NCBI RefSeq assembly: GCF_023206215.1
Contig: NZ_CP065800.1
Coordinates: forward strand, 1,240,001 to 1,304,000
DNA from: Butyrivibrio fibrisolvens
GTDB lineage: Bacteria; Bacillota; Clostridia; Lachnospirales; Lachnospiraceae
DNA length: 64,000 nt
Direction of reading: 5' to 3'
Shown: positions 3,498-43,474 of the stretch, piece by piece
How the letters are laid out: every line of letters begins with the position of its first letter
How positions within the stretch are numbered: position 1 is the first letter of the stretch
Made by a program: the position numbers and the translations under genes
Notes under the pieces: generated by a model
What the model was told of the DNA's origin: nothing
Database searches by the model: none
What the model saw: only the letters and a program-made list of their open reading frames with translations

Positions 3498-3548
3498 AAT
3501 AGGCATAATAATTATAAACTTAACTTGTATACCAAGAGGAATACTAAC

Positions 3549-5600
3549 ATGTGCGGAATTTGCGGATTACTTAATTATAAAGGAAATGCAAGAGCTGCAA
3601 TTGCAGCTATGAATTTACATATGAAAGATAGAGGCCCTGATGCAGACGGTATCTGGATAAGTCCTGAGAGCCCGGTGGCTTTTGGCCACAGGAGACTTGC
3701 CATCAGAGACTTATCAGCCAACGGATCTCAGCCTATGAAGTCTCATTCAGGCAGATATATCATGGTCTACAATGGTGAGATATATAATGCAGGTGCGTTA
3801 AAAGAAAAGCTCATAAGCGATGAAGTCTGCAAGGAAAGCGACTTTAGAGGAACCTCTGATACAGAGATACTTCTTGAATATGCAGAAAACTATGGTCTAT
3901 ATGATGCCCTTCGTATGAGTAAGGGAATGTTCGCAATAGGACTTTACGATGTGAAGACAGGAAGACTTCAGCTTGCAAGAGACCGTGTAGGTGAGAAGCC
4001 TCTTTACTATGGCTTTATAAACCATGAAGTATTTGGCTTTGCGTCAGATATCGGATGCTTCACAGAGCTTCCGGAATTTGAGAAAAAGATCAACAGAAGC
4101 GTTCTACCACTATATTTTAGTCATGGATATATTCCTGCTCCTTACAGCATATATGAAGATATCTATAAGCTTGAACCCGGAACAATCCTTACAATAGATG
4201 ATCCCTATGGATATTTTAACCCTGTAGAAGATGGCGATCTCAAGGAATATTACAGATCATCCAAAGCAGGTAGAAGCTTTAATGCAACTAACTATTATGA
4301 AGGTCATACCTACAAGGAAGTCTATGACAATATAGACGAACTCTGTCAGGATACAGGTCATGCCTATACTATATTCTGGTCCATGAAGGAAGCTGCTCTT
4401 TATGGTCAGAACAATATATTCCAGGGCTCTGAAGCAGAAGCAGCAGAGGAACTTGAAAGACTTATAAAAGACTCTGTTAAGGGTCAGATGGTAGCAGATG
4501 TTCCGCTTGGAGCCTTCCTTTCAGCCGGTATAGATTCAAGTACTATAGTATCTTTAATGCAGCAGGTAGCTCCCGGAAGAGTCAAGACTTTCACCATCGG
4601 TATGAAAGAAAAAGGCTATAACGAAGCTGAGATTGCTAAAGAGATAGCGGGAATCCTTGGCACAGAGCATACAGAGATGTATATAGATGATGCAGATGCC
4701 AAGAGAGTTATCCCGGATATTCCAAATATGTTTGGTGAGCCCTTTGCAGACAGCAGCCAGATACCAACTTATCTTGTAAGTAAGATGACACGTGAGCATG
4801 TAACAGTATCTCTGTCAGGAGATGCGGGAGATGAGCTCTTTTGCGGATATACATCATACAGATCTATTGAGAGGATTTGGGGCAAGATGGGCAGGATACC
4901 TTATCCTGTAAGGAGAGTAGCATCAGCTGTAACTACTCCGTTTGCAGGATTCAGTGATGTTGCCAAGATCAAGGCAGGTCTTCTTGGAGCTCGTAATATA
5001 GCAGATCTACACATGATAGAGTCAGACCCCTGGAGATATGGCAGGAAGATAACAGATATAGACAAGAACCCGCCGGATGGAAGATGGAACAATAAGTTGC
5101 TCTATGCAGGCAATACACTTAATCATTTCCTTGCAGAGACCAATCATGAGACAATGCTCATGGATATGACCATGTACCATCCTGACGATATCCTCACCAA
5201 GGTTGACAGAACAGCCATGGCAGTATCACTTGAAACAAGAGTGCCTCTCCTTGACAGGGATATCATAGAGTTTGCATGGACGCTTCCAACTTCGTACCTT
5301 CGTGATAACAAGGTTGGCAAAAAAGTCCTTCGTAATGTCCTTTATAAATATGTGCCAAAAGAACTTATGGACAGACCCAAGAAAGGATTCTCTATTCCGA
5401 TAGACCAGTGGCTTAGAGAGTCTGAACTTAGATCCTGGGCAGAGAGTCTTATAAGAAGGACCAAGATCAAAAGACAGGGATATCTTAATGCAGATGCTGT
5501 TCACAAGATATGGGACGACTTTATAAAAGGCGGTGAATGGAAGCCTCAGATCTGGTACATCCTTATGTTCCAGCAGTGGCTTGAGGACAATAACCTATGA
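3549..5600 (+). CDS. asnB: AsnB-type glutamine-dependent amidotransferase, copy 2, with altered PP-loop
   Basis: Start 3549 is chosen over the in-frame ATG at 3525 because only this start leaves the catalytic cysteine at position 2 (MCGICG). The product is 683 residues with a class II glutaminase domain (RGPDADG, YNGEIYN) followed by an ATP-pyrophosphatase domain. The PP-loop reads SAGIDSS at residues 325-331, where most relatives have SGGxDSS. The domain junction is about 55 residues longer than in copy 1 (roughly residues 220-290, with several Tyr and acidic residues). Later motifs SGDAGDE and DRPKKGF are intact, so it is probably active. The stop overlaps the MBOAT start by 4 bases. Uronic acid amidation is a plausible role; substrate unknown. 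Confidence 0.87.
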   Translation: MCGICGLLNYKGNARAAIAAMNLHMKDRGPDADGIWISPESPVAFGHRRLAIRDLSANGSQPMKSHSGRYIMVYNGEIYNAGALKEKLISDEVCKESDFRGTSDTEILLEYAENYGLYDALRMSKGMFAIGLYDVKTGRLQLARDRVGEKPLYYGFINHEVFGFASDIGCFTELPEFEKKINRSVLPLYFSHGYIPAPYSIYEDIYKLEPGTILTIDDPYGYFNPVEDGDLKEYYRSSKAGRSFNATNYYEGHTYKEVYDNIDELCQDTGHAYTIFWSMKEAALYGQNNIFQGSEAEAAEELERLIKDSVKGQMVADVPLGAFLSAGIDSSTIVSLMQQVAPGRVKTFTIGMKEKGYNEAEIAKEIAGILGTEHTEMYIDDADAKRVIPDIPNMFGEPFADSSQIPTYLVSKMTREHVTVSLSGDAGDELFCGYTSYRSIERIWGKMGRIPYPVRRVASAVTTPFAGFSDVAKIKAGLLGARNIADLHMIESDPWRYGRKITDIDKNPPDGRWNNKLLYAGNTLNHFLAETNHETMLMDMTMYHPDDILTKVDRTAMAVSLETRVPLLDRDIIEFAWTLPTSYLRDNKVGKKVLRNVLYKYVPKELMDRPKKGFSIPIDQWLRESELRSWAESLIRRTKIKRQGYLNADAVHKIWDDFIKGGEWKPQIWYILMFQQWLEDNNL

Positions 5601-7039
5601 GTTTTAATTCCTATATTTTTATATTGTGCCTTCTTCCGATAAGCTTTATAGGATATTTTGCGCTCAGCCGCAAAAAACAGGAATATGGCCTTTTATGGAT
5701 GGCTGCTTCATCACTTGTCTTTTATGCATGGGCAGGAATATCCATACTTTTACTCTTTAGCGCAAGTCTGATCCTTAATTACATATTTACGCTTTTTATA
5801 AAGCGGAGTAATTCTAAGCTTATACTTGCTTTAGGCATTATTCTGAATGTGATCTTACTAATATACTTCAAATATTCAGAATTTTTAGTTCAGAATATTA
5901 ATGCCTTATTTAGTACAGACTTTATTTTTAAGAATATAGCACTTCCTCTGGGGATCAGCTTTTTTACCTTCACGCAGATATCATGGCTGGTTGATACTTA
6001 TAGAGGCGAGACAAGGGATTACAGTCTCTTTGAGTATGTACTATTTATAAGCTATTTCCCAAAGATGGCAGAAGGCCCTATAGCACTTCATGGGGACATA
6101 CTGCCTCAGTTTAGAAATCCTGCCAAAAAGACTGTGGATTATGACAATATATCCCGCGGCATCATGATATTCGTACTTGGATTATTTAAAAAGCTCATGA
6201 TAGCGGATATTCTTGGCAAGGCTGTTGACTGGGGATTTAATAATGTTCCTGATCTGTATTCTATGGATATATGGATCGTGATGCTGTGCTATACACTGCA
6301 GATATATTTTGACTTTAGCGGATATTGCGATATGGCAGCAGGTGTATCACTTTTGTTTAACATAGAACTTCCTGTCAACTTTAATTCTCCTTACAAGGCG
6401 CTTTCTATCACAGATTTTTGGAAGAGATGGCACATATCACTTACATCTTTCCTAAGAAAATATGTGTATTTCCCGCTTGGAGGCAGTAGGAAAGGCACAG
6501 TCAGAACCTATATAAATATGATGATTGTATTTATAATAAGCGGAATCTGGCATGGTGCTAACTGGACCTTCATACTGTGGGGAGCACTTCACGGAGCATG
6601 TCAGGTACTTCACAGGATATTTAGAAAACCTTTTGACAAGATATTTGCACCTGTCAGATGGTTTATCACATTTTTGTTTGTGAATATTGCATGGCTGTTG
6701 TTCAGGGCAGATTCTGTAGCTCAGTGGTGGTACATGGTCGGCAAGGCCTTTGGTATCAAGTACAGGACCATGCATGAAGAGCTGGTATCGGTATTCAAGA
6801 TACCAAGACTTAGATCTGTGCTGAGTGCTATCGGGATATCATATTCGGATATTGGCGTGTATGTTTTTGGTATGGTACTGATGCTCATATTATGTATGTT
6901 CATATGCCTTGTACCAAGGAATAACCTTGAAAGGCAGCACAAGACTAATTTATGGACACTTGCGGTGACTATGGTTTTATTTATGGTATGCCTCTTGTCA
7001 CTGTCTAACGTGACATCGTTTTTGTATTTTAATTTTTGA
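5597..7039 (+). CDS. MBOAT family O-acyltransferase (AlgI/DltB-like), copy 1
   Basis: A 480-residue polytopic membrane protein. It carries the MBOAT core DFWKRWHIS (His279) and SGIWHGANW (His319); the second histidine is the family's catalytic residue. PLGGSRKGT between them is typical of AlgI relatives. Family members move an acetyl group across the membrane to an exported polysaccharide or teichoic acid, handing over to an SGNH-type protein outside. The next gene encodes such a candidate, so the two form an acetylation module. Translation is coupled to the upstream AsnB by an ATGA overlap. Acetyl is the usual acyl group but is not shown here. Confidence 0.92.
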   Translation: MSFNSYIFILCLLPISFIGYFALSRKKQEYGLLWMAASSLVFYAWAGISILLLFSASLILNYIFTLFIKRSNSKLILALGIILNVILLIYFKYSEFLVQNINALFSTDFIFKNIALPLGISFFTFTQISWLVDTYRGETRDYSLFEYVLFISYFPKMAEGPIALHGDILPQFRNPAKKTVDYDNISRGIMIFVLGLFKKLMIADILGKAVDWGFNNVPDLYSMDIWIVMLCYTLQIYFDFSGYCDMAAGVSLLFNIELPVNFNSPYKALSITDFWKRWHISLTSFLRKYVYFPLGGSRKGTVRTYINMMIVFIISGIWHGANWTFILWGALHGACQVLHRIFRKPFDKIFAPVRWFITFLFVNIAWLLFRADSVAQWWYMVGKAFGIKYRTMHEELVSVFKIPRLRSVLSAIGISYSDIGVYVFGMVLMLILCMFICLVPRNNLERQHKTNLWTLAVTMVLFMVCLLSLSNVTSFLYFNF

Positions 7040-7101
7040 CAAACTTATCAGAATCAGGATGGATAAGACTGATCAGATTCATAGTCTAAGAATGGAATTA
7101 T

Positions 7102-8193
7102 ATGCAGGATAAAAAAAGAATGCTCACCACAAAGTCGTGGGTTAAAATTTTCATATCGATCTTTGTATGCCTTGTAGTTTTGATGGCGGCTATGGTGGCG
7201 GTGATAGATCCTTTTTTCCATTACCATAAACCGCTGGGAGCATTCTATTACACTCTTGATAACGAGAGATATCAAAATGACGGAATTACAAGATACTTTG
7301 ATTATAATGCCCTCATAACGGGAACTTCGATGACCCAGAATTTTAAGGCCTCGCAGGCACAGGAACTCTGGAATAGAGATTTTATCAAAGTCTGCTATGC
7401 AGGTGGTATGTTCAAAGAGATCAATGACAATATAGAACTGGCTCTTGAAACTCATGATGTAGATGTTGTCGTGCGAAGTCTTGATGGAAGTTACCTGCTT
7501 GTAGATAAAGATGCCGAAAGAGACGACCTTGGAACCTACCCGGAATATCTTTATGACAGCAATGTATTTAATGATGTTAACTACCTTTTAAATAGCACTG
7601 TCATAGGCGGATACTGTCTTCCAATGCTATTTAAGTTAGGGTTGGGAAATACTGGCGGCATCACATCTTTTGATGAATACAGTAACTGGATGGGGCAGGC
7701 AACGCTTGGAGCAGCATCGGTCCTTGGAGATAAGACCTCTTTTGAAGCTCCTGATGATCTGATCACTTCTCTTACAGATGAAGAGATTCAAACCCTTACA
7801 GATACTGTTAAGCAGAATATAACAGATACAGCACAAGCTCACCCTGATACACAGTTTTATTATTTTTTTCCGCCGTATAGTGCTGCATATTGGGGCGGTT
7901 CTTGGGAAAAGGGGACTATGTTAAAAGAGATGGAATGCTATAGGCTAGCTGCCAGCCTCATACTACCATATGAGAACATACATCTTTTTGCATTTGATGA
8001 TATGACTGATATGACATGCAACCTTGATAATTACAGGGATGTATCGCACTATAGCGGTGATGTAAGTGATATGATCCTTGAGATGATGGCAGCAGATGAG
8101 AACAGACTCACACTTGATACTTACAATGAGTACTATGATGAAGTTGAACAGTTTTATAAAAACTATGATTTTAATGAACTGATACCAAAATGA
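7102..8193 (+). CDS. Membrane-anchored SGNH/AlgJ-like protein, partner of MBOAT copy 1
   Basis: A 363-residue protein with an N-terminal signal-anchor (about residues 12-35) and an extracytoplasmic domain. The motif ITGTSMTQN places a possible nucleophile at Ser76, and the C-terminal DVSHYS gives Asp313 and His316 in the spacing expected for an SGNH esterase/transferase triad. It directly follows an MBOAT gene, the same arrangement as AlgI with AlgJ/AlgX or DltB with DltD. The likely job is to transfer acetyl groups to the growing polymer outside the cell. Overall similarity to named families is weak by eye, so the fold call rests on motif placement and context. Confidence 0.68.
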   Translation: MQDKKRMLTTKSWVKIFISIFVCLVVLMAAMVAVIDPFFHYHKPLGAFYYTLDNERYQNDGITRYFDYNALITGTSMTQNFKASQAQELWNRDFIKVCYAGGMFKEINDNIELALETHDVDVVVRSLDGSYLLVDKDAERDDLGTYPEYLYDSNVFNDVNYLLNSTVIGGYCLPMLFKLGLGNTGGITSFDEYSNWMGQATLGAASVLGDKTSFEAPDDLITSLTDEEIQTLTDTVKQNITDTAQAHPDTQFYYFFPPYSAAYWGGSWEKGTMLKEMECYRLAASLILPYENIHLFAFDDMTDMTCNLDNYRDVSHYSGDVSDMILEMMAADENRLTLDTYNEYYDEVEQFYKNYDFNELIPK

Positions 8194-29171: not shown

Positions 29172-30635
29172 ATGCAGATCTTATCATTATACTTTTTGAT
29201 ATTCCTTGCAATTGTAGCAGTTGTTAACTATGTATTGCCACAGAAAATACGTCCATATTGGCTTCTTGTTGCCAATATGGCTTTTTATGCAAGCTACAAG
29301 GTAGCAGGTCTCTTAGTGATAATAGCCGGAATCATAATATCATATACTGCAGGAAGGCTAATACAGAGAAGTCCTGACAATAAGAAGATGATCCTTGCAG
29401 GTACAATATTAGTCCTTGTAGGAAGCCTTTGTTATTTTAAGTATACTGTGCTTCTGGGTGCAACAATCAGGAATATACAGGAACTTGTAAGAGGAAGTTC
29501 TGATTTTAGGCTTGAAAGTATACTGATACCACTCGGCATATCATATTTTCTGCTTCAGATGATCGGATATGTGGTAGATGTATATAAGGGCAAAGCTGAT
29601 GCTAACTGCAGCATTGTCAACTATGCATTGTTTGTATCCTTTTTCCCGACAGTTGTATCAGGTCCTATAGAGCGTGCCGGCAATATGATCCCTCAGTACG
29701 AGAAGCTTCCGGGATTTGATGAAGACAACATACGAAAAGGTATACTTCAGATAATATGGGGATTTTTCCTTAAGATGATAGTTGCAGACAGATTGGGAGT
29801 AATAGTCAGCACTGTTAATGCTGATCCTGCTGCGTATAAGGGAACTGTAGTATTTATAGCAGTACTTATGTATGCGCTTCAGATATATACAGACTTTGGA
29901 GGATATTCAAGTATCGCAATCGGAAGTGCGAGAATACTTGGCATAAAAGTCATGGACAACTTCAATTCGCCATTCCTTTCTACAAGCGTAGCAGAGCTCT
30001 GGCGTAAATGGCACATATCGCTTTCTACATGGTTAAGAGACTATATCTATATTCCTCTTGGAGGTAATAGAAAGGGAACGGTCAGGAAGTATCTTAATCT
30101 TCTTATTACATTCTTTGTAAGCGGTTTGTGGCACGGCGCTGTATGGACCTATGCAGTATGGGGACTTATAAATGGTATATTTCAGGTACTAGGAATGATT
30201 CTTATGCCTGTTAGAAATAAGGCTGTGGAAGTTTTTCACATAGACAGGGAAGCTTTCTCACATAGACTTTTGAAGACTTTTTTTACTTTCTTCTTGTTCT
30301 CATTTGCTTTTATCTTTTTTGGCAAGGATACCTTTGCACAGGCAATCCTTATAATAAAAAATATGTGGCAGTTTACGCCATGGGTACTGACAGACGGAAG
30401 TTTATATACACTTGGCCTTGACAGGCCTGCTTTTAATCTGATGCTCTTAGGTCTTATGCTTATGGTCATTGCGGATATAGCTAAGTATAAGGGTGTGAAT
30501 ATTTCGGAAGTTATATCAAGACAGAGTCTGTGGATCAGATGGTGCATATATATAGGTGCTCTTGTACTTATATCAGTATGCGGCGTATGGGGACACGGAT
30601 ATGATGCGACAAGCTTTATATATGTTCAGTTCTAG
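29172..30635 (+). CDS. MBOAT family O-acyltransferase (AlgI/DltB-like), copy 2
   Basis: A 487-residue polytopic protein with the MBOAT core ELWRKWHIS (His281) and SGLWHGAVW (His321), the latter the expected catalytic histidine, and PLGGNRKGT between them. It is clearly related to copy 1 at 5597 but diverged across most of its length, so it probably serves a different acceptor or repeat unit. AGGTGGAG precedes the ATG. The next gene encodes an SGNH-like extracytoplasmic protein, giving a second acylation module. Confidence 0.92.
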   Translation: MQILSLYFLIFLAIVAVVNYVLPQKIRPYWLLVANMAFYASYKVAGLLVIIAGIIISYTAGRLIQRSPDNKKMILAGTILVLVGSLCYFKYTVLLGATIRNIQELVRGSSDFRLESILIPLGISYFLLQMIGYVVDVYKGKADANCSIVNYALFVSFFPTVVSGPIERAGNMIPQYEKLPGFDEDNIRKGILQIIWGFFLKMIVADRLGVIVSTVNADPAAYKGTVVFIAVLMYALQIYTDFGGYSSIAIGSARILGIKVMDNFNSPFLSTSVAELWRKWHISLSTWLRDYIYIPLGGNRKGTVRKYLNLLITFFVSGLWHGAVWTYAVWGLINGIFQVLGMILMPVRNKAVEVFHIDREAFSHRLLKTFFTFFLFSFAFIFFGKDTFAQAILIIKNMWQFTPWVLTDGSLYTLGLDRPAFNLMLLGLMLMVIADIAKYKGVNISEVISRQSLWIRWCIYIGALVLISVCGVWGHGYDATSFIYVQF

Positions 30636-30775
30636 GACATAGATTATTTATAGATTACTGATTCACACGTCTATTGATTATACAGATAAATATTGGATTA
30701 TAAGAATAAAATGGCAATAGCTTTTTGAAAACAAACAGATTGCTTTCATATTATAGCCAGTTCATGAGGTTACAC

Positions 30776-32314
30776 ATGACTAAAAACGTAGTTGATAACA
30801 AAAATAATAATAGCGGCAATAATGCCGGGAAAAGCCATAATAATATATGGATATTTATAGTAAAGGCTGTAGCTCTCCTTGCTATAGCAGCAGTAGTAAT
30901 GCAGGCTGTGTTCAAGGTTGTACAGAGAAAAGAAAGTTATGAAAAGTATGCAGACTTTTTTGACGTAGCAGATCAGATAGATGTTCTCTATCTTGGATCA
31001 TCCCACGTAATTAACGGAGTTAATCCTGTTCAGATATTCGAGCAGTATGGATATACCGGATACAACATGGGAGGACATGGAAGCACACTGCCGGCTTCAT
31101 ACTGGGAGCTTAGACTTGCTCTTGAATATTGTAATCCCAAGGTTGTGTTTGTGGATTCATATATGCTTGAGAAAAATTACCAGTATATAGATGTCATGGA
31201 TGAGAATGCTACAGCTGCTGACCTTAATACATCTGTAGAGCAGCTGCACCTGAATATGGACTGCTGGCCCTATTCTGATGTCAAGAAAGCTGCTATAGAA
31301 GATCTTATCTATGATAAGGAACTTCACCAGGATTTCCTCTTTGACTTTGAACTCTATCACGAGAGGTGGTCAGAGCTTGATAAGAACGACTTCCTGCGTC
31401 TTAATGATACAAGTGACAGGAACCTTCTTATGGGCGCAGAGAAGAGATTTCAGGTTCACGGAACGTATACTCTTGAAGACAGGACAGAGGGATTATCAGA
31501 AGAGACTGTCGGTATGCAGTACCTTAGGAAGATCATAGAAGAGTGTCAGTCAAGAGGCATAGTCGTAGTAACTATGATGCTTCCACTGGCGCAGCTTCAG
31601 TCACAGGATATGGCAGCAGCTGCTTCTATGGAGCAGATATCAGCTGAGTATGGTATACCATGTCTTAATATGATTCAGGATACAAGTATAGTTAATCTCT
31701 ATACAGATCTTAATGATTCTAATCACCTTAATGCAGGTGGTATGAACAGAGTATCAAGATATCTGGGACAGTGGCTTAGTGATAATGCCGGCGGTATCCT
31801 TACAGATCACAGAGGCGATAGCGCTTACAGCAGATGGACAGATAGAGTGGTTCAAAGCCACGAGGCAGAGTCATCTTATGTAGAGGCAGCAGATAATGCA
31901 TATAGCGCGCTGCTATCCTTGTACGACGAGACGACTTTTGATTATGTAGTATATGTTAAGGGTAACTCTTCGGCATATACTAATGTGGCATTTCTTCAGC
32001 TAATAGAAGAGTTGTCCGGAACTACAGAAGTTGAGACGGCAGCAGCTGTGGGTGGACCTTATCTATTTATGCACGGAGTGGCTGATGGGATTGAGAATCT
32101 TGAGATATCAGGAGATCAGCAACCGGCGCCATTTAGCTCAAAGCTTGGGTTCGTAACTTATCTGGGGCTTCACGACTTTGCGGCGATATATGTTAATGAT
32201 GATACAGACAATAACCTTCTTGATATGAATGAGCATTATAATGATGATGTGCAGATACTGCTTATCAACAAGGAGACGGGAGAGATATATAGTCATCTGT
32301 GCTTTAGCTTATGA
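30776..32314 (+). CDS. Membrane-anchored SGNH-like acyltransferase partner with an extra C-terminal domain
   Basis: A 512-residue protein. An Asn-rich cytoplasmic leader precedes one membrane helix (about residues 25-45). The outer SGNH-like domain has LYLGSSHVINGVNP (Ser76 as probable nucleophile), YNMGGHGST, and DSNHLNAGG with Asp314 and His317. Residues from about 345 form a second domain ending in ILLINKETGEIYSH, which resembles interleukin-like EMT-inducer (ILEI) domains seen in some bacterial surface proteins; this part is tentative. ATG 30776 is chosen for its GAGGT; a TTG at 30725 and an ATG at 30764 are alternatives. It follows MBOAT copy 2 and likely performs the final O-acetyl transfer. 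Confidence 0.76.
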   Translation: MTKNVVDNKNNNSGNNAGKSHNNIWIFIVKAVALLAIAAVVMQAVFKVVQRKESYEKYADFFDVADQIDVLYLGSSHVINGVNPVQIFEQYGYTGYNMGGHGSTLPASYWELRLALEYCNPKVVFVDSYMLEKNYQYIDVMDENATAADLNTSVEQLHLNMDCWPYSDVKKAAIEDLIYDKELHQDFLFDFELYHERWSELDKNDFLRLNDTSDRNLLMGAEKRFQVHGTYTLEDRTEGLSEETVGMQYLRKIIEECQSRGIVVVTMMLPLAQLQSQDMAAAASMEQISAEYGIPCLNMIQDTSIVNLYTDLNDSNHLNAGGMNRVSRYLGQWLSDNAGGILTDHRGDSAYSRWTDRVVQSHEAESSYVEAADNAYSALLSLYDETTFDYVVYVKGNSSAYTNVAFLQLIEELSGTTEVETAAAVGGPYLFMHGVADGIENLEISGDQQPAPFSSKLGFVTYLGLHDFAAIYVNDDTDNNLLDMNEHYNDDVQILLINKETGEIYSHLCFSL

Positions 32315-34822: not shown

Positions 34823-36019
34823 TCAATTAAATTCCCCTGCAAAAAATCTTCTATATCCCTCAAGGAGCGCCTTGCTTGTATGATCCCATGCAAGTTCATT
34901 GACAACTCTGTTATGTCCGAACTCACCCATTTTCTTGCGTTTCTCAGGATCTTCAAGGAGTCCAATGATTTTCTTGGCCATATCCTCAGAATCATTAGGC
35001 TTAGCGTATACTGAAGCTTCCTGTGCGGAGTAGCGTCCTTCTGTTAAGTCAAACTGAACGATAGGCTTGGCAAGAGACATATATTCCATGATCTTATTCA
35101 TAGTACTCTTGTCGTTCATACTGTTGTACTCGTCACTGTTGACACATACATCAGCAGTGTTGAGATACTTTAGCATATCTTCATCAGAGACTCTTCCTGT
35201 GAATTCGACGCAGGTATCAAGACCCATGTCATGAGCCTTAGCTCTAAGTGCATCAAGGTGAGGACCACCGCCTACGATACCCCAGAATACATTGTTGTCA
35301 CGCTCTTTGATATACTTGGCAGCTTCTAGCATATATTCTATGCCTTCCTGCTGACCTATAACGCCGACGTAACCTACCATGTATTTGAAGCCGCGCTTTA
35401 TTTCTTCACAAGCAGGCTGTATCTTCATTCTCTCAAGACGCGGACCACTTCTAAGGATTATGACCTTTTTAGGATCCATGTGACCACGCTCAATTGCGAT
35501 CTTTTTATAACTTTCATTGGTAACAAAAGCAAAGGTACAGTTCTTGTAAGTCTTTCTTTCAAGATAGCACAGGCCTTTATAGAAGATTCCACCTGTTTTG
35601 CCAAACTTGGCTTCATAGAGTTCAGGGCAGATGTCGTGGTGATCGAAGACATACTTAACACCGTATTTCTTGAAATGCTTGGCAACCATATAGATATCGT
35701 CAGGCGGGTTACAACCCTGAATTACGTCAAAACCAATTTCTTTATAGATAAGCTTTGCAAGTCTCAGTTCTTCTTTTAAAGTCCAGGAGTACTCTCTGAA
35801 ATATCCGATTGCATTGTTGCCTTCCGGCGGTGCATCATGACGGAAGATGTTAACTCCCTGAAGGACCTCTCTGTCCTTGGTATATGACTTACCCTTAGGA
35901 CTTATAACAGATACTGTATATCCGTTGGCCGCAAGAGTAGTAGCTTCCTGCCACACACGTGTATCAAAAGGTACAGGAAGATTTTCAACTATTATCAGTA
36001 TTTTTCCGGAATTTTGCAT
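34823..36019 (-). CDS. GT4 family glycosyltransferase
   Basis: A 398-residue GT-B enzyme. ENLPVPFDTRVWQEATTL near the start and DHHDICPELYEAKFG are typical of a GT4 subgroup found in EPS and O-antigen loci beside AsnB and heparinase-type proteins. The donor domain has VGYVGVIGQQEGI. In place of the usual EX7E motif the site reads near STMNKIMEYMSLAKP, which is normal for this subgroup. The start overlaps the AsnB stop by one base (TAATG), so the two are co-translated. It is the last gene of the minus-strand operon. Confidence 0.89.
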   Translation of the reverse strand: MQNSGKILIIVENLPVPFDTRVWQEATTLAANGYTVSVISPKGKSYTKDREVLQGVNIFRHDAPPEGNNAIGYFREYSWTLKEELRLAKLIYKEIGFDVIQGCNPPDDIYMVAKHFKKYGVKYVFDHHDICPELYEAKFGKTGGIFYKGLCYLERKTYKNCTFAFVTNESYKKIAIERGHMDPKKVIILRSGPRLERMKIQPACEEIKRGFKYMVGYVGVIGQQEGIEYMLEAAKYIKERDNNVFWGIVGGGPHLDALRAKAHDMGLDTCVEFTGRVSDEDMLKYLNTADVCVNSDEYNSMNDKSTMNKIMEYMSLAKPIVQFDLTEGRYSAQEASVYAKPNDSEDMAKKIIGLLEDPEKRKKMGEFGHNRVVNELAWDHTSKALLEGYRRFFAGEFN

Positions 36020-37995
36020 TATACTGCAGCTCCTACATTAAATATTTCCATCCATTTTTCAAGGCATATGTATCTGAAAAGGCCGATGCTGTCCTTGCCT
36101 TCAAGAAGCTTGTCCCAGTCGCGCAGGATCTTGTCTCTGTCGATATAGCGGGATGCCCTGAAATTCTCATTTTCAAAAACTTTGCGATACTCATCAGAAT
36201 ATTTTCTGATCCAGTCAAGTTCAGGCGTGTAGAAACCTATCTTGTCGCGCCTTGTACGTATGCCTTCAGGCATATCGAGAGCTCTTCTCATTATGTATTT
36301 AGAGAAGCCGCGTTCTATTTTAACCCCAAGAGGTAGTTTCATGCAATATTCAACAAGCCGAAAATCAAGGAAAGGTAGTCTTTCTTCTATGGAAAATGCC
36401 ATAGAATTTCTATCGACATATCGTAACAGGGCAGGGAGAGATATCTTTTCGAAGTCGTTGACAAGATATCTTTCATTGTCCTTGTAACTGTTCTTAACAT
36501 GCATCTTGGCAAAAGAGCTGTCTAGATATTCACGTCTTATATCATTGTTATCAGCTTTGCCTCCGAAGAACTGTCTGAGCATAGACAGATCTGCAGCAAG
36601 AGATGAGCCTTTCTTCCTGGCGTAAGGTAGGTACAAAAGAGATTCCCATATAGCTGATAGGAACTTATGACTCTTAAATAGTCTCTTGATGTAATAAACC
36701 CTTGCTTTGCGATATCCGCATAGTATCTCATCTGCGCCCTGACCATCAAGGAGGACCTTGGCTCCCTTACTTGCAGCAAGCTTCATAACTGAATAGGAAG
36801 CGTACATACTTGTGGACAGGAATGGCTCGTCCTGAGTGTAGATCAGGTTATCAAGATCATCTCTAAGAGATTCACCTGTTGGATACGTATAGTAACCATT
36901 AACACCAGTCTTATCTATGACCATTTTGATGTATTTACTCTCATCATTGGGTGAGTTCTTGTAGCAGGATGAGTAGGTGCTGGGGGTGTATATAGCCTTA
37001 CCGGTAGTTGTACCTTCGAGTGATGTTTTATCGTAATCGTTACTGTTTTCAGATGATCTTAGCTCAGATTTAGTACCAGGTATCTTGCATTCATTATCAG
37101 TATGTGACTTAGAATCAGCCTTTGAGTTTCTGAGTATATCAATTTGCCTTGCAGTCTCACACACAATAGCTGATGAATCAAGCCCTCCTGACAGACAACT
37201 TCCAACAGGCACATCCGCACGCATACGGAGCTTGATAGAGTCCTGGAAGAGGTGTCTGAATTTTTTGACCATAGAAGGAGTAGTCTTACCGGATACAGTC
37301 TCTTTATATTCAAGGGTATAGAACTTGTCTATGGACATGTTGCCATCCCTATCAACATGCATGAAGCTTCCAGCAGGAAGTCTGTATATATCGTTAAAAA
37401 AGGTATAGTCCTCACAGTCTACAAAGCTGTTAACAAGATAGTCAAGGATCGCCTGATCATTGGCAACTCTCTTGATATTCTTATCTTCGAGCATAGATTT
37501 GATCTCAGATGAGAAGATAAGGTATCCCGGCTGCGTTGTATAGTATAAGGGCTTTACTCCATATCGGTCACGTGACATGAATACTGAATTATCAGCCTTG
37601 TCATATACAGCGAATGCCCAGAAACCATTAAAATGAGACAGACACTCTTTTTTGCCAAAATGATCGATAGAAGCCATGATAACTTCTGTGTCAGTATGGG
37701 TTTTAAAAGTGTATCCTGCAGCTTCAAGTTCACTACGAAGCTCTATATAGTTATAGATCTCGCCATTAAATACGATCTCGTATCTGTCCATGTAAGACAT
37801 CGGCTGATGACCTGCAGATGAGAGGTCGATAATAGACAGACGGACGTGTCCAAGAGTAATATCGCCATCTGAATATATACCATTATCATCAGGACCTCTA
37901 TGAGCCTGAGTTTTATTCATGAGAGTCACAAGATTTTCTCTTTCTGAAGCTTTGAGAACTTTCTTATGATCTATTATTCCGCAAATACCGCACAT
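36019..37995 (-). CDS. asnB: AsnB-type glutamine-dependent amidotransferase, copy 3
   Basis: A 658-residue protein with Cys2 (MCGICG), RGPDDNG and FNGEIYNY in the glutaminase domain and the standard PP-loop SGGLDSS at residues 269-275. Soon after the loop, about residues 290-350, comes a polar stretch rich in Ser, Asn, Lys and Thr that relatives lack. DGQGADEILCGY follows. It lies in one operon with an AlgD-like dehydrogenase, a heparinase-family protein and a GT4, the setting in which AsnB homologues are thought to convert uronic acids to uronamides. That role is inferred. Confidence 0.88.
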   Translation of the reverse strand: MCGICGIIDHKKVLKASERENLVTLMNKTQAHRGPDDNGIYSDGDITLGHVRLSIIDLSSAGHQPMSYMDRYEIVFNGEIYNYIELRSELEAAGYTFKTHTDTEVIMASIDHFGKKECLSHFNGFWAFAVYDKADNSVFMSRDRYGVKPLYYTTQPGYLIFSSEIKSMLEDKNIKRVANDQAILDYLVNSFVDCEDYTFFNDIYRLPAGSFMHVDRDGNMSIDKFYTLEYKETVSGKTTPSMVKKFRHLFQDSIKLRMRADVPVGSCLSGGLDSSAIVCETARQIDILRNSKADSKSHTDNECKIPGTKSELRSSENSNDYDKTSLEGTTTGKAIYTPSTYSSCYKNSPNDESKYIKMVIDKTGVNGYYTYPTGESLRDDLDNLIYTQDEPFLSTSMYASYSVMKLAASKGAKVLLDGQGADEILCGYRKARVYYIKRLFKSHKFLSAIWESLLYLPYARKKGSSLAADLSMLRQFFGGKADNNDIRREYLDSSFAKMHVKNSYKDNERYLVNDFEKISLPALLRYVDRNSMAFSIEERLPFLDFRLVEYCMKLPLGVKIERGFSKYIMRRALDMPEGIRTRRDKIGFYTPELDWIRKYSDEYRKVFENENFRASRYIDRDKILRDWDKLLEGKDSIGLFRYICLEKWMEIFNVGAAV

Positions 37996-38018
37996 AATAT
38001 ATTCCTTAATTCTTTGTT

Positions 38019-38459
38019 TTATCTAACATATTCGCCTGCAACAAGTACCAGGTCGTCCATGTTGTGGATGTTCTCTCCTGTATTTAGAATATGAACATCA
38101 AATTCACCATCACCAAAATCCATGATGTGTCTGAGATTGATGGTGATATCTTTTTTCTCGCCAATCTTTAAAATCCATTTTGCGCAGTTATCGCCGCAAG
38201 CAGAAGCGTTAAAAATTCTGTCAGGGCACTCATACATACACATCAGAGTTTTTACACCACCGGATAATTCTCTAGGAGTGATTCCGCCAAGAACAGGACT
38301 GTCGATGATCCTTGGAGCGATCACTATGGATTTATCTACATCTTTGATCATTTCCTTACAGAAATCATCCATTATCCATTCATCTGTATATGTGTTTTTA
38401 AAGAATCTGGCAGGGTTATAGATGGCTTCCGGCATATCACCGTAATATATCGAAACCAT
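38019..38459 (-). CDS. DUF4869 family protein
   Basis: A 146-residue soluble protein. SIYYGDMPEAIYNPARFFKN, DSPVLGGITPRELSGGVKTL and FNASACGDNCAKWILKI match the DUF4869 family as I know it, which is common in Lachnospiraceae and always lacks an assigned function. Two conserved cysteines sit in ACGDNC. It is next to a P-loop protein (38493), its usual partner, 33 bases away, and 23 bases from AsnB copy 3. It has no recognisable sugar-enzyme motif, so its place in this operon is unexplained. Confidence 0.8.
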   Translation of the reverse strand: MVSIYYGDMPEAIYNPARFFKNTYTDEWIMDDFCKEMIKDVDKSIVIAPRIIDSPVLGGITPRELSGGVKTLMCMYECPDRIFNASACGDNCAKWILKIGEKKDITINLRHIMDFGDGEFDVHILNTGENIHNMDDLVLVAGEYVR

Positions 38460-38492
38460 AGGATTATCTCCTTATCTGATCATGATGGTGTA

Positions 38493-39458
38493 TCATTCCA
38501 TCTTGATCTTTTTCATTATATTTAAAACTGATTTTTTATTATTATCATGAAGATAAACGGGATTTATTTGTTTCTTGTTATACTTTAGATAAGTTCCTTT
38601 GGTTATCTCTATGAGATAATGAGTAAAAAATCTCTCCCAGCTAAAAAAGTCAGAGCTTTCTATATAGTTTGAAGGGGTATCAAGTACATCCAAATTTATG
38701 TTGTTTTTGATAATGCCGGACGATAGAATCAGCCATTCAAATGATTCCGGAAGAAAAAGAGCGATATTATCGTCTTTTTTTATTAGCTTCATTATTCTGT
38801 CAATTTCAGATCCGAATGCTGCTCCATCAGCAATTATCAAAAGTTTTTTATCTTTGTATTTGGTGATTTCCTTGAAAATATTAGATTTGCCGCTGGCACT
38901 TACAACTATAAAATCTTTTCCTTCTGACACATTTTTGAAAAAATCAAAACCTGAATTGGAATCCTCAACAATTACAACTTCTGGTTTGATATCATTTTTA
39001 GGATCAAAAGATCCATATATATGATATAGTTCATGATATTCTTGCTTTAGTCCTGAATATTTACCGGATGATTTTATGCCATATATTTCTTCTACACTAT
39101 ATGGAAGATTTTGAAGACCTTCTCTGGAAACAATAACATAGTAGTTGTCAGAATTTTTTACAGTATCAGCAAATTCAATTGTTGGAAGAAATTCATTATC
39201 TTCATCAATAAATATAATACTGTCTTTTATATTATTTATGAGAAGTTTCCAGTCTCTTCCTGCGACAGATCTGCATTCCTTGTCACAGCTGATAGAAATA
39301 CCACTATTTTCTCCTGATTCATAGAATTCTGATATCATCTCAACAAGAGTGGTCTTGCCGGTTGCACTATCTCCTTTGATTATGGTAATATTGCGCCTGA
39401 CTTCAAATTCATATTTGACTGCTGTGTTTGATACAACTATTTTATGTGTACCCTTCAT
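38493..39458 (-). CDS. P-loop NTPase, usual partner of DUF4869
   Basis: A 321-residue protein. The N-terminal strands lead into IIKGDSATGKTTLV, a Walker A motif at about residues 28-41, and SIIFIDEDNEF is a possible Walker B. A middle part with VVIVEDSNSGFDFF and a later nucleotide-fold-like strand LLIIADGAAFGSEI follow; the C-terminus is helical. No known enzyme signature is evident. The gene is AT-rich compared with flanking AsnB and heparinase genes, and pairs with DUF4869. An ATP-driven sensor or processing pair is imaginable, but no function can be given. Confidence 0.78.
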   Translation of the reverse strand: MKGTHKIVVSNTAVKYEFEVRRNITIIKGDSATGKTTLVEMISEFYESGENSGISISCDKECRSVAGRDWKLLINNIKDSIIFIDEDNEFLPTIEFADTVKNSDNYYVIVSREGLQNLPYSVEEIYGIKSSGKYSGLKQEYHELYHIYGSFDPKNDIKPEVVIVEDSNSGFDFFKNVSEGKDFIVVSASGKSNIFKEITKYKDKKLLIIADGAAFGSEIDRIMKLIKKDDNIALFLPESFEWLILSSGIIKNNINLDVLDTPSNYIESSDFFSWERFFTHYLIEITKGTYLKYNKKQINPVYLHDNNKKSVLNIMKKIKME

Positions 39459-39518
39459 CGGAATTCTCCAGTATAGTATAAATATCTTTGATCTAGTATA
39501 TAGGTGATTATCGGTATA

Positions 39519-41867
39519 TTATTTTCGAGTAATGCAGATCTTTGTAATGGTATGATCTGAAATAATCGAAGCTTCTATAGCAGGAGCAGGATTCTTAATA
39601 CCATACTCTGTGGAAAGATCTTTTTGAGTAAACGAGATTTTTCCAAAACCAGATATAAACTCAATTGTAGCGGTGACAATACCTGTGACGGAGTTAAAGT
39701 TATATGTTGAAAACTTACTAGTCAGTGCTTTGGGTATTGAATTGTTATTATTAAAATCATCCTTTTCAGAGGATGTGTTTTCTTCTGCAAGTGAAACACT
39801 TGCCTTCTCACCCAACAAGAGATTGAAAACAGCCGCATGGCTCTCGTCCGGAACAAATGGCTCATTGTCCTTAGTAAGCCAATCCTCAATTAGAAGTATA
39901 CCTTCCTTCTTTTTGAAAGTAAACTTACGGGTGTGCTTGATGGGGCTGTATCCATCATGTGTTGCCATTACTTCGTCTATATCTTCAGTATTGGTGAATC
40001 CGTCAAGAGTGCAGGTGGCTTTGCGTCCCCAAAGGAATGGTCCCATCATCTCAGACTGATCTGCACTATTTATGCAGACAGTATTGTGCCTGCAGGTACG
40101 TCTGAAGTCATTGCGAGACTCTGTATCGCAGTGGTATATATACGTACCGGGATCGGCGAAGATTCTGGTTCCGTCAGCGAACATCTGGAAGCTGAGGGCG
40201 TCAGAATGTCCGTGAGCTGCAATAGAGCCATATCCTAGAGGTGCGTGATCGATTCCTATGAGGATATCTGGGATATTCTCATATCCACCGGACATGAATA
40301 CAGTCATTCCACCTTCGGGACGAGTTATACTTCTACTCCTGCGGTAATAGTTCTTTTCTTGTGATCTGATAATATCTTCTTTAGAGAAGAGCCAGAGTAC
40401 AGTCTCTGAAATGGGAGAAGAGAAAATATTGATGTTCTCCGGTCCAGAGTCTTGGGAATCTGATGTTATTACATCTAAAGTTTTAGTATCCGGTATTTCC
40501 TTTTCAGGCTTAGCATGCTTGTGCTTTGATTTTTTATTGCTTTTGCTATTACTATTAATCACAGATATAACATCAGGATTATCACTATTTGTAGGAAGTT
40601 TTAACTCTGTATACTTTTCATCAAGCAACAGGCTCATTAGCTCCAGTGTATACTTGAAGTGATTGCATCCCCCGTGGAAGTCAATGATACGTCCGTCGTC
40701 ATCATCGCCGAAGGATAGAATCTCATCATGATCTCCGATATTGTTGCTTATATATCTAGACATGGACCTAAGGAGTTTGTCCCAAGACTTTGAAGGCTCT
40801 ATACCATTTATTTTAAAAAGGCGAAGGTCGAGTGCCAGAACTTCCATTTCGAAGGTCTGGTAATACTGAGACTCTTCCTTGTTGATACCATCAGAATAGT
40901 TCTGAAGGAATATCTCTCTGGTGAGGATAGATTCTGCAAGTTTGATCCATGGCATATAATCAAAAAGAATACCTGCATGCAGTATAGCTGATATCTCAAC
41001 TATCAGGTGATTATTGGCAGAAGAGAACTGCGAATAATGGTGAGAGATATAGTCAGCCATGTTGAGGACACCAAAACGGATGGAATTAAGCAGAGTCTGA
41101 ATCTTGACTGCATCATCTGATGGTATCGAAGATGTACCTTCGGATAGAGCATTATTTATATCTGCATTAGCTTCTAATACAGCTGAACCGTCAGTAGAGT
41201 CAGAATTCTTCCCGGACTTTTTGTTTTTATGCTTATCTTTCTTGTGGTGTGCAGAATCCTTACGAAATTCCTTGTGAAGAGCGGATTCAAGGAATGCATA
41301 CATATAGCACCAGTTCATGCACCTCTCAGCAATCTCAATAGCAGAAACCCATGAAATTCCCCACAGGAATGGATTCTTATCATTCCAATCATTAAAGAGT
41401 TCTACAAGCTCATTGAGGTAGGTAGGGTCAAGAGATGCGTAGTAGTCCTTGGCAAGCATAGCAAACTGGAAATGCTTATTAAGCTCCCAGTTCATGCGGG
41501 CATCACCGATGTCATTACGCTCTCTGTAATTGAGCTTTGAAGATGGGATCATAGGCCAGGGAGATGTTCCCTCGCCTCCAAAACCCTGGAACCAGTCCGA
41601 CTTGTAGTCTTCGTATTTGAAGTCTCCCAGAAGCGGTATAGAAGTTCCAAGAGTATAGAACTCATTACGCAGATTCAGGCCGAGCCGTTTGGGCTCAGCC
41701 TGAAGACGTGAATATTTTCTATTGAATAGCTTATCTGTAACCTTACACTGTTTCTTGAATCTGACAGATTCAACTTTATATCGGAATGTCTGGGATACTC
41801 TCCAAGGAATCTCTTTGGCGTCCATCGCTGAAAGTCGTTTAATAAACCAGTTAAGATTCGATGCCAT
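39519..41867 (-). CDS. Heparinase II/III family protein (uronate polysaccharide lyase-like)
   Basis: A 782-residue protein with an alpha-helical toroid (about 1-430) and a C-terminal beta-sandwich. HGHSDALSFQMFADG near residues 550-565 and CRHNTVCINSADQSE carry the histidines and tyrosine region expected for the active site. No signal peptide is visible at the MASNLNWFIKRL start. Two Lys/Ser/His-rich inserts, about residues 215-260 and 455-490, lie within loops of the fold. In EPS loci this family often accompanies a nucleotide-sugar dehydrogenase and AsnB, and may trim or edit uronic-acid-containing polymer or intermediates. True lyase activity is not proven by sequence. Confidence 0.85.
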   Translation of the reverse strand: MASNLNWFIKRLSAMDAKEIPWRVSQTFRYKVESVRFKKQCKVTDKLFNRKYSRLQAEPKRLGLNLRNEFYTLGTSIPLLGDFKYEDYKSDWFQGFGGEGTSPWPMIPSSKLNYRERNDIGDARMNWELNKHFQFAMLAKDYYASLDPTYLNELVELFNDWNDKNPFLWGISWVSAIEIAERCMNWCYMYAFLESALHKEFRKDSAHHKKDKHKNKKSGKNSDSTDGSAVLEANADINNALSEGTSSIPSDDAVKIQTLLNSIRFGVLNMADYISHHYSQFSSANNHLIVEISAILHAGILFDYMPWIKLAESILTREIFLQNYSDGINKEESQYYQTFEMEVLALDLRLFKINGIEPSKSWDKLLRSMSRYISNNIGDHDEILSFGDDDDGRIIDFHGGCNHFKYTLELMSLLLDEKYTELKLPTNSDNPDVISVINSNSKSNKKSKHKHAKPEKEIPDTKTLDVITSDSQDSGPENINIFSSPISETVLWLFSKEDIIRSQEKNYYRRSRSITRPEGGMTVFMSGGYENIPDILIGIDHAPLGYGSIAAHGHSDALSFQMFADGTRIFADPGTYIYHCDTESRNDFRRTCRHNTVCINSADQSEMMGPFLWGRKATCTLDGFTNTEDIDEVMATHDGYSPIKHTRKFTFKKKEGILLIEDWLTKDNEPFVPDESHAAVFNLLLGEKASVSLAEENTSSEKDDFNNNNSIPKALTSKFSTYNFNSVTGIVTATIEFISGFGKISFTQKDLSTEYGIKNPAPAIEASIISDHTITKICITRK

Positions 41868-41971
41868 GTATTACCTGCTTTCATGAAAACTATATTTGAC
41901 GATATATTACTCTAAAGTATTACGAAGATCCAGTGAAAGTGATATTAGATATCCTTTCACGGCGCTTTTGC

Positions 41972-43342
41972 TCAAAACTCTGTATGTGGCATATCAGGTG
42001 TAGCTGTATCTGTGTTCTTACTTACATTGATATCAGCCCAGCTGATTCCTTCATATCCGCCTTCGTAGTTAAGTTCCTGGAACTGACGAACCAGATCCAC
42101 GATCTCTTTGTGAGGGTACTTATCAGGGATATCAGCAAACTCCGGCTCCTTGTTAGTGATGACCAGGACATCACTGGCATTTGCGACAGCATCAAGATCA
42201 TCAGAGATGATGTTGTGAAGGTGAGGGAGCTTAGCAGCGATGAAGTCTGCATTAGTTCCTGTAAGCTGTGATATCTTAACGTTCTTGTCATAGATATGGA
42301 TCTCATAACCCTTACCTAGGAGCATCTCAGCTACGTCTACGATAGGACTGCAGCGAAGATCGTCTGTACCTGACTTGAAAGACAGACCCAGGATTCCAAC
42401 CTTGCGAAGACCTTTTTTCTCAATGATCTGGACAGCGCGCTTTTTCTGATTCTCATTACTTGCATCAATTGCGTTGATAACAGGTACGTCTACATACAGG
42501 TCATGAGCCAGTGTACGAAGGGCCTTGGAGTCCTTGGGAAGGCAGGAGCCGCCGTAAGCAAATCCTGGCTTAAAGTATGTGGGAGAGATATTGAGCTGTC
42601 TGTCCTTGCAGAATATCTCCATAACCTTGTGAGAGTCTATATCAAGACCCTTACAGATGTTACCAACTTCGTTGGCAAATACGATCTTAAGTGCATGATA
42701 AGTGTTATCAACATACTTCATGATCTCAGCGACTCTTATATCTGTGCTGATGAATTCGCCGGGGATATCTTTATATAGCTCTTTCATCATAGAAAGGGCC
42801 TTATCGTTATCTGTTCCTACAAGTGTGAGCGGAGGATTGAGGTAGTCATCAACAGCGCTTCCTTCACGCAGAAATTCAGGGTTTGATACAACTGCGAAGT
42901 CCACGTTACATTTTTTGCCGGAAGTCTCTTCGATGATACCTGCAACCTTCTCGCAGGTTCCGGGGAGGACGGTACTTCTTATAGCTACTACATGGAATGA
43001 ATCCTTGTCTTTAAGGGCAGTTCCGATCTCCTTAGCTACATTGAAGATGTAGTTGAGGTTCAGGTGCCCTTCAGGAGTACTTGGAGTTCCGACTACGATG
43101 AAAGATATATCGGAATTCATAACAGTGTACTTATAATCAGAAGTAGCTTCGAGTCTGCCCTTATCGTGCGCATCCTTGATAAGATCTGCGATGCCGGCTT
43201 CGATGATAGTGGGTCTTCCTTCATTTATAAGATTTACTTTATTGGCGGACACGTCATTGCCGATGATGTGGTGACCAAGGCTTGCACAGCAGGCAGCACC
43301 TACACATCCGACATAACCAAGTCCGAAGAAGCTTATATTCAT
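41972..43342 (-). CDS. algD: GDP-mannose 6-dehydrogenase-like nucleotide-sugar dehydrogenase (AlgD type)
   Basis: A 456-residue NAD-dependent dehydrogenase. GLGYVG is the dinucleotide loop. GFAYGGSCLPKD places the catalytic cysteine at residue 267, nearly the same number as in Pseudomonas AlgD, and the stretch from GGSCLPKD through LGLSFKSGTDDLR and AEMLLGKGYE resembles AlgD more than UDP-glucose dehydrogenases, which commonly have CFPKD. It would oxidise GDP-mannose to GDP-mannuronate. UDP-glucose or UDP-HexNAc as substrate remains possible. ATG 43342 is chosen over 43354 since GGAG lies six bases before it. It is the first gene of the minus-strand operon to 34823. Confidence 0.84.
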   Translation of the reverse strand: MNISFFGLGYVGCVGAACCASLGHHIIGNDVSANKVNLINEGRPTIIEAGIADLIKDAHDKGRLEATSDYKYTVMNSDISFIVVGTPSTPEGHLNLNYIFNVAKEIGTALKDKDSFHVVAIRSTVLPGTCEKVAGIIEETSGKKCNVDFAVVSNPEFLREGSAVDDYLNPPLTLVGTDNDKALSMMKELYKDIPGEFISTDIRVAEIMKYVDNTYHALKIVFANEVGNICKGLDIDSHKVMEIFCKDRQLNISPTYFKPGFAYGGSCLPKDSKALRTLAHDLYVDVPVINAIDASNENQKKRAVQIIEKKGLRKVGILGLSFKSGTDDLRCSPIVDVAEMLLGKGYEIHIYDKNVKISQLTGTNADFIAAKLPHLHNIISDDLDAVANASDVLVITNKEPEFADIPDKYPHKEIVDLVRQFQELNYEGGYEGISWADINVSKNTDTATPDMPHTEF

Positions 43343-43412
43343 GGTATTCTCCATTCTAAATACTAATAATTGCGAGTAAGATTCGAATTGCTTTACATTT
43401 GTTTATATAAAA

Positions 43413-43438: not shown

Positions 43439-43474
43439 CGATAGATTGTATAATTTAATGAGGATTTTGTAAAG
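43425..43474 (+). promoter_or_regulatory. Sigma-A-type promoter for the GT26-fusion gene, twin of the one at 26066
   Basis: TTGGAC (43425-43430), an 18-base spacer and TATAAT (43449-43454). The 17 bases at 43441-43457 are identical to 26081-26097, and GATTTTGTAAAG at 43463-43474 matches 26103-26114 in 11 of 12 positions at the same distance. The upstream halves differ. Confidence 0.8.

Follow-up and report, generated by a model that had tools for sequence, protein, structure and literature searches.

A heparinase-family protein beside an AlgD-type dehydrogenase in Butyrivibrio fibrisolvens: a patchy cross-phylum cassette and a candidate uronosyl C5-epimerase

In a 64,000-nucleotide stretch of the Butyrivibrio fibrisolvens genome (the window, G000:C1:1240001-1304000; the genome comprises 4.45 Mb in two contigs), an operon on the minus strand carries the genes of a dehydrogenase of the AlgD type (DH), a protein of the heparinase II/III family (HEP), an AsnB-type glutamine amidotransferase and a GT4 glycosyltransferase. 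We found that DH, GT4 and HEP constitute a cassette that occurs patchily across phyla, an observation that is new here. The telling part is HEP. In several phyla it accompanies manno-uronate activation as a conserved partner that appears to be cytosolic, a role that an earlier sequence-only reading of this DNA had missed; because of this partnership, the gene set is not peculiar to Lachnospiraceae. We give about an even chance to the reading that a surface polysaccharide receives a mannuronate-derived unit through this operon and that HEP acts as a cytosolic C5-epimerase converting D-mannuronate to L-guluronate, maybe amidated by AsnB. Gene content, homology, fold and linkage were observed, and from them we infer all of the enzymatic steps. 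Each protein comes from a known family; the new part is the cassette together with the epimerase reading, neither of which was found in print among open-licence papers, a search that gives weak evidence of absence.

The operon and its AlgD-type dehydrogenase

Six same-strand open reading frames (ORFs) run from 43354 to 34823 in the order DH, HEP, a P-loop protein, a DUF4869 protein, AsnB and GT4 (Table 1), separated by gaps of 104, 60, 33, 23 and -1 bases. In a site scan, no minus-strand terminator-like site fell between the genes, all of those within the operon lying inside HEP. The promoter-like site just 5' of DH scored 10/12, among the two best of the scan, in which such sites as a class are not above chance (31, against a shuffle mean of 30.5). 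Pfam confirmed the dehydrogenase, N- and C-terminal Hepar_II_III, AsnB and GT4 domains, showing that the operon of an AlgD-like dehydrogenase, a heparinase-family protein and AsnB proposed in the sequence-only reading is real; its gene list holds, with GT4 and the P-loop/DUF4869 pair, which it did not mention, to be added.

DH is a three-domain UDPG/MGDP dehydrogenase with its catalytic cysteine in GGSCLPKD. This cysteine is residue 271 of the full 460-aa ORF; the Cys267 and the gene end at 43342 given earlier fit a start at Met5. The best match in the Protein Data Bank (PDB) was the P. aeruginosa GDP-mannose dehydrogenase (451 bits, residues 5-439), followed by a UDP-glucose dehydrogenase (255 bits, residues 6-359). 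When scored against AlgD and four other solved dehydrogenases, DH reached 428 bits with AlgD and 257 with the best other. Ahead of the cysteine, DH carries the AlgD-type stretch LNIS...PGFAYGGSCLPKD, absent from the UDP-glucose-type references. A tree of 84 dehydrogenases grouped the 66 AlgD-type rows, including the window DH and AlgD, into one clade with a Shimodaira-Hasegawa-like approximate likelihood-ratio test (SH-aLRT) support of 98; the tree was made by a quick method, which warned of long branches, and left out the row of the locus itself (L009) and DH ORFs of <=300 aa or <=80 bits. Score, insert and tree place DH with AlgD, as the GDP-mannose-dehydrogenase-like assignment had proposed and as the phylogeny against AlgD and Ugd suggested there now indicates, and an identity as UDP-glucose dehydrogenase was rejected on score, motif and tree. 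NCBIfam is undecided on DH, since no equivalog reached its cut-off (best AglM, 309 versus 670).

Compared with AlgD of Pseudomonas alginate synthesis (PDB 1mfz/1mv8), DH is alike over nearly the full length, with 47% identity, the same cysteine motif and the AlgD-type insert, and keeps Glu161, Lys210, Asn214, His217, Asn252, Tyr257, Cys268 and Lys324 (AlgD numbering). It differs in its partners, which are GT4, HEP and AsnB, and in three replaced residues considered below. The genome encodes the GDP-mannose user gmd, above its cut-off, and a relative of mannose-1-phosphate guanylyltransferase, below the GMP_PMI cut-off; GDP-mannose is therefore probably made in this organism. The grouping of DH with AlgD and these two genes lend support to the mannuronate proposed in the sequence-only reading.

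The P-loop/DUF4869 pair was considered as a part of the pathway and rejected. DUF4869 had 33 matches in 23 of 61 genus genomes, and ten of these loci, the present one included, were examined over ~3.4 kb. The P-loop gene adjoined DUF4869 at all nine other loci (9/9), and no HEP or AsnB was present within the ~3.4 kb at any of the nine. In four genus relatives, the 16.6-19.9 kb surrounding the cassette contained neither gene. Because the pair recurs without HEP or AsnB and was not seen at the sister cassettes, it is probably a passenger, inserted as a unit of its own. As a side observation, the segment 38019-39458 (-) resembles a mobile two-gene unit.

HEP and manno-uronate activation across phyla

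A search of one genome per species found 481 HEP relatives, and the best 80 loci were analyzed, a number of them at contig ends. An AlgD-type dehydrogenase was present in 58 of these 80 loci, and genes for N-acetylmannosaminuronate (ManNAcA) synthesis, WecB and/or WecC, in 5. The linkage is tight: the dehydrogenase lies within 300 bases of HEP in 43/58 AlgD-type loci, and the cassette GT4 (>250 bits) accompanies 53 of these 58 versus 3 of the 22 others. AsnB is less frequent (11/80). AlgD-type dehydrogenases beside HEP occur in Bacillota, Bacteroidota, Pseudomonadota, Acidobacteriota, Omnitrophota, Chloroflexota and Fibrobacterota.

DH itself is rare, being found in 2/391 genomes sampled from the class, 6/397 from the family and 5/79 from the genus, own genome included. 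A search based on DH led to ten other genomes, nine of which carry the GT4, eight HEP and four AsnB; in one of the two lacking HEP, DH sits at a contig end. The DH-based and HEP-based sets overlap, with at least 6 contigs common to both. All five DH-bearing genomes of the 79-genome genus sample combine DH, GT4, HEP and AsnB (5/5), in the order DH-GT4-HEP-AsnB in the four relatives and with the same four genes in another order in the window.

Annotated records extend this picture. Deinococcus aetherius has asnB-HEP-DH-GT4, and Rhizobium rhizoryzae and Shinella have DH-GT4-HEP. In Streptomyces, DH-GT4 and asnB-oxidoreductase-HEP occur within one run, and in Paroceanicella HEP, GT4 and DH are scattered across ~13 kb. 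The dehydrogenases of all five score best with AlgD. Haloarcula has a GT4-HEP pair with no dehydrogenase in view, its GT4 being only distantly like that of the cassette, and in the stretch viewed of Roseobacter litoralis, the GT4 is accompanied by a UDP-glucose-type dehydrogenase, with HEP absent from the genes listed.

Where an AlgD-type dehydrogenase is lacking (22 loci), HEP accompanies ManNAcA genes in five cases. L051 and L076 have the order WecG-WecC-WecB-HEP, L052 and L075 carry WecG and WecC, and L063 carries WecB and WecG; the WecB matches exceed their own cut-offs, and the WecC matches are below that for UDP-ManNAc dehydrogenase. The Escherichia coli plasmid pCRE10.2 (L138) carries wecB, wecC, DUF2837, an O-antigen polymerase, a glycosyltransferase, HEP and GT4. 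Among 5426 E. coli genomes, nine match, four on the chromosome and five on plasmids; in the two of these four chromosomes viewed (L143 and L144, the latter of strain AR_0077), the cluster is at the O-antigen locus, as it precedes cpsG, gnd, ugd and wzzB. A Citrobacter plasmid (L145) also has ManNAcA genes with HEP, as does an annotated Parabacteroides record. The HEPs of E. coli, Citrobacter and Parabacteroides read GNH and the AlgD-linked ones NNH, and the GT4 of these three loci differs from the cassette GT4. Genes of the WecB/WecC/WecG pathway adjoin HEP in these three and in some loci of Bacillota; this pathway acts on UDP-ManNAc, whereas the window DH is of the GDP-mannose type. The HEP-linked sugar in the ManNAcA loci would again be a manno-configured uronic acid. 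We also noted that the E. coli plasmid wecB-wecC-HEP-GT4 cluster, of O-antigen type, is flanked by insertion sequence elements, as is its diverged form in Citrobacter (L145), and that a HEP identical to that of the E. coli plasmid occurs on Enterobacter plasmids.

A candidate C5-epimerase and the competing explanations

HEP (closest named matches, B. fibrisolvens proteins at 86-87% identity) has the N- and C-terminal Hepar_II_III domains, a toroid plus beta-sandwich fold, and no hydrophobic N-terminal stretch that would mark a signal sequence in a hydropathy test, the only test applied. Its Asn286, Tyr336 and His552 align with the corresponding residues of solved heparinase III chains; Asn, Tyr and His are the catalytic residues of PL12 lyases. 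Across the HEPs, the D. aetherius protein discussed below apart, hardly any variation occurs at the Tyr, His and metal-site columns. The model fold matches both heparinase III and human dermatan-sulfate epimerase (DS-epi1, 6hzn), and no epimerase was closer than DS-epi1 among the solved structures listed as matches. Unlike the heparinase III/PL12 lyases (4mmh, 5jmd and 4fnv; 18-19% identity), HEP shows no signal sequence and is encoded in biosynthesis operons. With DS-epi1 it shares the fold at 11-12% identity; DS-epi1 acts on glucuronate in the polymer in the Golgi, whereas HEP would be cytosolic, and DUF4962 was not matched in HEP, which has the Hepar_II_III domains only (Pfam, E 0.001). Scores with the curated HepC models were below cut-off (NF045573, 58 versus 700 bits; NF045572, 53 versus 600 bits). 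AlgG, a periplasmic beta-helix enzyme that acts on polymer, performs the same conversion as that proposed for HEP with a different fold. Besides these features, HEP has two Lys/Ser/Asn-rich inserts (residues ~200-255 and ~430-480), variable in length among its nearest relatives. Its phage relatives comprise two unannotated records only.

According to passages in PMC8006597, PMC11848413 and PMC12088678, heparinase-fold lyases and DS-epi1 have a common Tyr/His pair and start by removing the C5 proton of the uronate, after which a lyase eliminates the 4-linked sugar and an epimerase reprotonates the other face. In the pathway that we propose, strong homology predicts that DH oxidizes GDP-mannose to GDP-D-mannuronate, and tight linkage points to GT4 as the enzyme that would pass D-mannuronate to a lipid-linked oligosaccharide on the inner membrane face. 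HEP would then act in the cytosol, its Tyr/His pair taking the C5 proton while Asn holds the carboxylate, and the proton would come back on the opposite face to give L-guluronate with the chain uncut, as in DS-epi1. C5 inversion converts D-mannuronate to L-guluronate and D-ManNAcA to N-acetyl-L-gulosaminuronate (L-GulNAcA). AsnB would amidate the carboxyl group, and the unit would be flipped and polymerized. The operon AsnB is a complete Cys2 glutamine amidotransferase relative, like the AsnB amidotransferases of exopolysaccharide (EPS) and O-antigen loci in domain make-up and Cys2; it scored 361 bits, below the XrtA/PEP-CTERM amidotransferase cut-off of 817, and 435 bits, above the asparagine synthase cut-off of 267. 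From its place in the operon, a role as the amidating enzyme is plausible.

With a polymer that is assembled outside, a cytosolic HEP would have little to cleave and a lipid-linked unit to modify. We favor the C5-epimerase, at roughly even odds, because the predicted cytosolic enzyme is made together with a sugar-activating dehydrogenase and a transferase. In a rather unlikely alternative, HEP would be a beta-eliminating lyase of the cytosol and would shorten or remove defective mannuronate-containing intermediates, as a counterpart of periplasmic AlgL. The nearest solved relatives of HEP are indeed lyases, heparinase III and alginate lyases, its Tyr and His residues are intact, and AlgL, which reportedly has a clearing role in alginate makers (PMC8829089), offers a precedent; but there would be little to clear in the cytosol if the polymer is assembled outside the membrane, and the HEP gene stays near sugar-activating genes in several phyla, ManNAcA clusters included. 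It is improbable that the set makes and amidates D-mannuronate only, with HEP as a non-catalytic assembly or substrate-holding partner. Such a partner would suit the Deinococcus HEP, which lacks the Asn and Tyr despite a full cassette, and the weaker conservation of HEP within the genus (38-40%, versus 73-78% for DH and 69-73% for GT4), yet structural partners rarely retain Tyr, His and metal-site columns as nearly invariant as those elsewhere in the family.

Equally improbable, in our estimate, is a DH that uses UDP-glucose or UDP-HexNAc for a polymer containing glucuronate or iduronate. Passages in two reviews report L-iduronic acid and L-altrose in B. fibrisolvens EPS, which this explanation would match. 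Sequence cannot prove the substrate, and AlgD Cys213, Tyr256 and Arg259 are Asp, Thr and Lys in DH; published passages discuss these three positions, together with Asn252 and Lys324, as active-site residues, and Tyr occupies the 256 column in the majority of the cassette relatives. Opposed to this stand the AlgD-type insert, the clade, the far higher AlgD score, and the presence in the genome of separate dehydrogenases resembling UDP-glucose (L010) and UDP-GlcNAc (TviB; L011) enzymes, both below model cut-offs. Least probable is a catabolic set for mannuronate polymers located in an EPS region by chance: the family is annotated as alginate lyase or heparinase, but the neighbors oxidize nucleotide sugars and transfer sugars, and named records place the pair with an O-antigen polymerase or ligase, a flippase, GumC or WzzB.

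Several further observations weigh against the epimerase pathway. A passage in PMC11848413 states that no residue is known to tell an epimerase from a lyase in this fold. In the HEP model, residues 546-553, which hold His552, have a predicted local distance difference test (pLDDT) score of <50, and the Foldseek template modeling (TM) scores with 6hzn are middling (0.47/0.49). The cytosolic placement rests on hydropathy and is not decisive, as the second heparinase-family protein of the genome (L013), maybe catabolic, also has no obvious signal sequence. The D. aetherius HEP (L117 6670-8670 (+)) lacks His287 as well as the Asn and Tyr, three enterobacterial HEPs carry Asn at the Asp572 column, and conservation at the Asn-His columns (284-287) is biased by search patterns that included SSANNHLI. 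No dehydrogenase was present in the stretch viewed at 17 of the 80 HEP loci, three of which have the cassette GT4 and two a WecG relative, and several are short contigs. UDP-glucose-type dehydrogenases are near some HEPs (L075, L145, L016, L022, L023 and L032), every typed locus of this kind having an AlgD- or WecC-type enzyme as well, and the usual ugd is also behind the E. coli HEP locus. Finally, C5 inversion can proceed by other routes, since a source passage ascribes the N-acetyl-L-altrosaminuronate (L-AltNAcA) of Plesiomonas O17 to WbgZ, called a C-5 epimerase; HEP was accordingly no longer compared with the route to this sugar as a precedent. In passages of a 2026 paper, the GlcE-like enzyme of Bermanella is the sole bacterial glucuronyl C5-epimerase to be named (PMC13308652).

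Other genes of the window and implications

The window is rich in polysaccharide genes, with GT2, GT4 and GT11 transferases, a sugar transferase gene at 18826-20235, two ABC transporters, two MBOATs and three AsnB. Pfam recovered all three AsnB homologs counted earlier (130-2100, 3525-5600 and that of the operon). The two MBOAT/SGNH pairs described in the sequence-only reading stand in part: both MBOATs were matched (5597-7039 and 29172-30635), and their downstream partners (7102-8193 and 30725-32314) had no Pfam match at E 0.001. The latter product contains GSSH and DSNHL motifs, which by eye we take to be SGNH-like, and had no PDB sequence match either. The MBOAT domains of the proposed AlgI/AlgJ-like modules hold and the AlgI/AlgJ link is weak, the closest PDB and NCBIfam relative of the MBOAT at 29172 being DltB (below the DltB cut-off). 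Relatives of this pair sit after HEP in three loci, and a pair like the other one lies ~8 kb from the cassette in L134; these neighbors lend modest support to an O-acylation of the polymer, which is plausible from the gene content.

A flippase-like protein (32440-33990) is weak, at 27.7 bits versus a cut-off of 300, and no polysaccharide polymerase was identified in the window. PilZ, beta-helix and alginate-export families were absent from the Pfam matches of the scanned window ORFs, and Alg8-like GT2s were not tested for; with no alginate-specific family among those matches, a plain alginate operon was dropped. The divergent 5' neighbor of the operon (43499-45118 (+)) has a C-terminal WecG/TagA domain and a weak EPS sugar-transferase-like N-terminus, with no Pfam Bac_transf match, and a nucleotidyltransferase gene (Polbeta/NTP_transf_2; 34186-34725 (+)) adjoins the 3' end. 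Farther away, 58575-61659 (+) holds two DUF2142-matching ORFs, one of them weak and below cut-off, and between these a short ORF that overlaps, representing two proteins or one broken gene. Elsewhere in the genome, L013 (G000:C1:3898458) encodes 628 aa.

Table 1 Features of the operon and of the MBOAT pairs (window positions)
Feature	Position	Strand	Basis
AlgD-type nucleotide-sugar (GDP-mannose) 6-dehydrogenase (DH)	41972..43354	-	Pfam, PDB match, tree; start probably 43342 (Met5)
HEP, heparinase II/III-family, 782 aa, proposed uronosyl C5-epimerase	39519..41867	-	Pfam, model, fold
Weak P-loop protein, 321 aa, AAA_14-like below cut-off	38493..39458	-	Pfam
DUF4869 protein, other half of the P-loop pair	38019..38459	-	Pfam
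AsnB-type glutamine amidotransferase, Cys2, GATase and synthetase domains	36019..37995	-	Pfam, NCBIfam
GT4 glycosyltransferase, candidate mannuronosyl transferase, conserved in the cassette	34823..36019	-	Pfam, linkage
Promoter-like site TTTACA-17-TACAAT	43445..43473	-	Motif scan; class not above chance
MBOAT and SGNH-like pair 1	29172..32314	+	Pfam for MBOAT; relatives 3' of HEP in L037, L040, L112
MBOAT and downstream gene (second SGNH pair of the earlier reading)	5597..8193	+	Partner without Pfam match

Beyond this organism, we tentatively propose, with slightly less than even confidence, that bacteria and archaea share a family of uronosyl C5-epimerases with the heparinase fold. These would work in the cytosol on repeat units carried by a lipid, and their genes are linked to GDP-mannuronate or UDP-ManNAcA activation and sometimes to AsnB. 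Such enzymes, now filed as alginate or heparin lyases, would be functional counterparts of human DS-epi1, would form the L-guluronate and L-GulNAcA of EPS, capsules and O-antigens as well as the amides of both, and would supply an enzyme missing for known L-gulo-uronate polymers. A passage in PMC3901696 describes a Vibrio polysaccharide that contains L-GulNAcA as a glycine amide, with C5 inversion of ManNAcA proposed; a figure legend of a 2015 review calls the C5-epimerase of Vibrio polysaccharide unknown, and its text suggests VpsB (PMC4432689). If the proposal is true, many genes annotated as 'alginate lyase family' or 'heparinase II/III' would be biosynthetic epimerases, and the origin of L-guluronate-type sugars in repeat-unit polysaccharides, the Vibrio step among them, could be put to a test. 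These sugars would also become easier to predict from genomes, and bacterial lyases would be tied to the animal glycosaminoglycan epimerases of the same fold.

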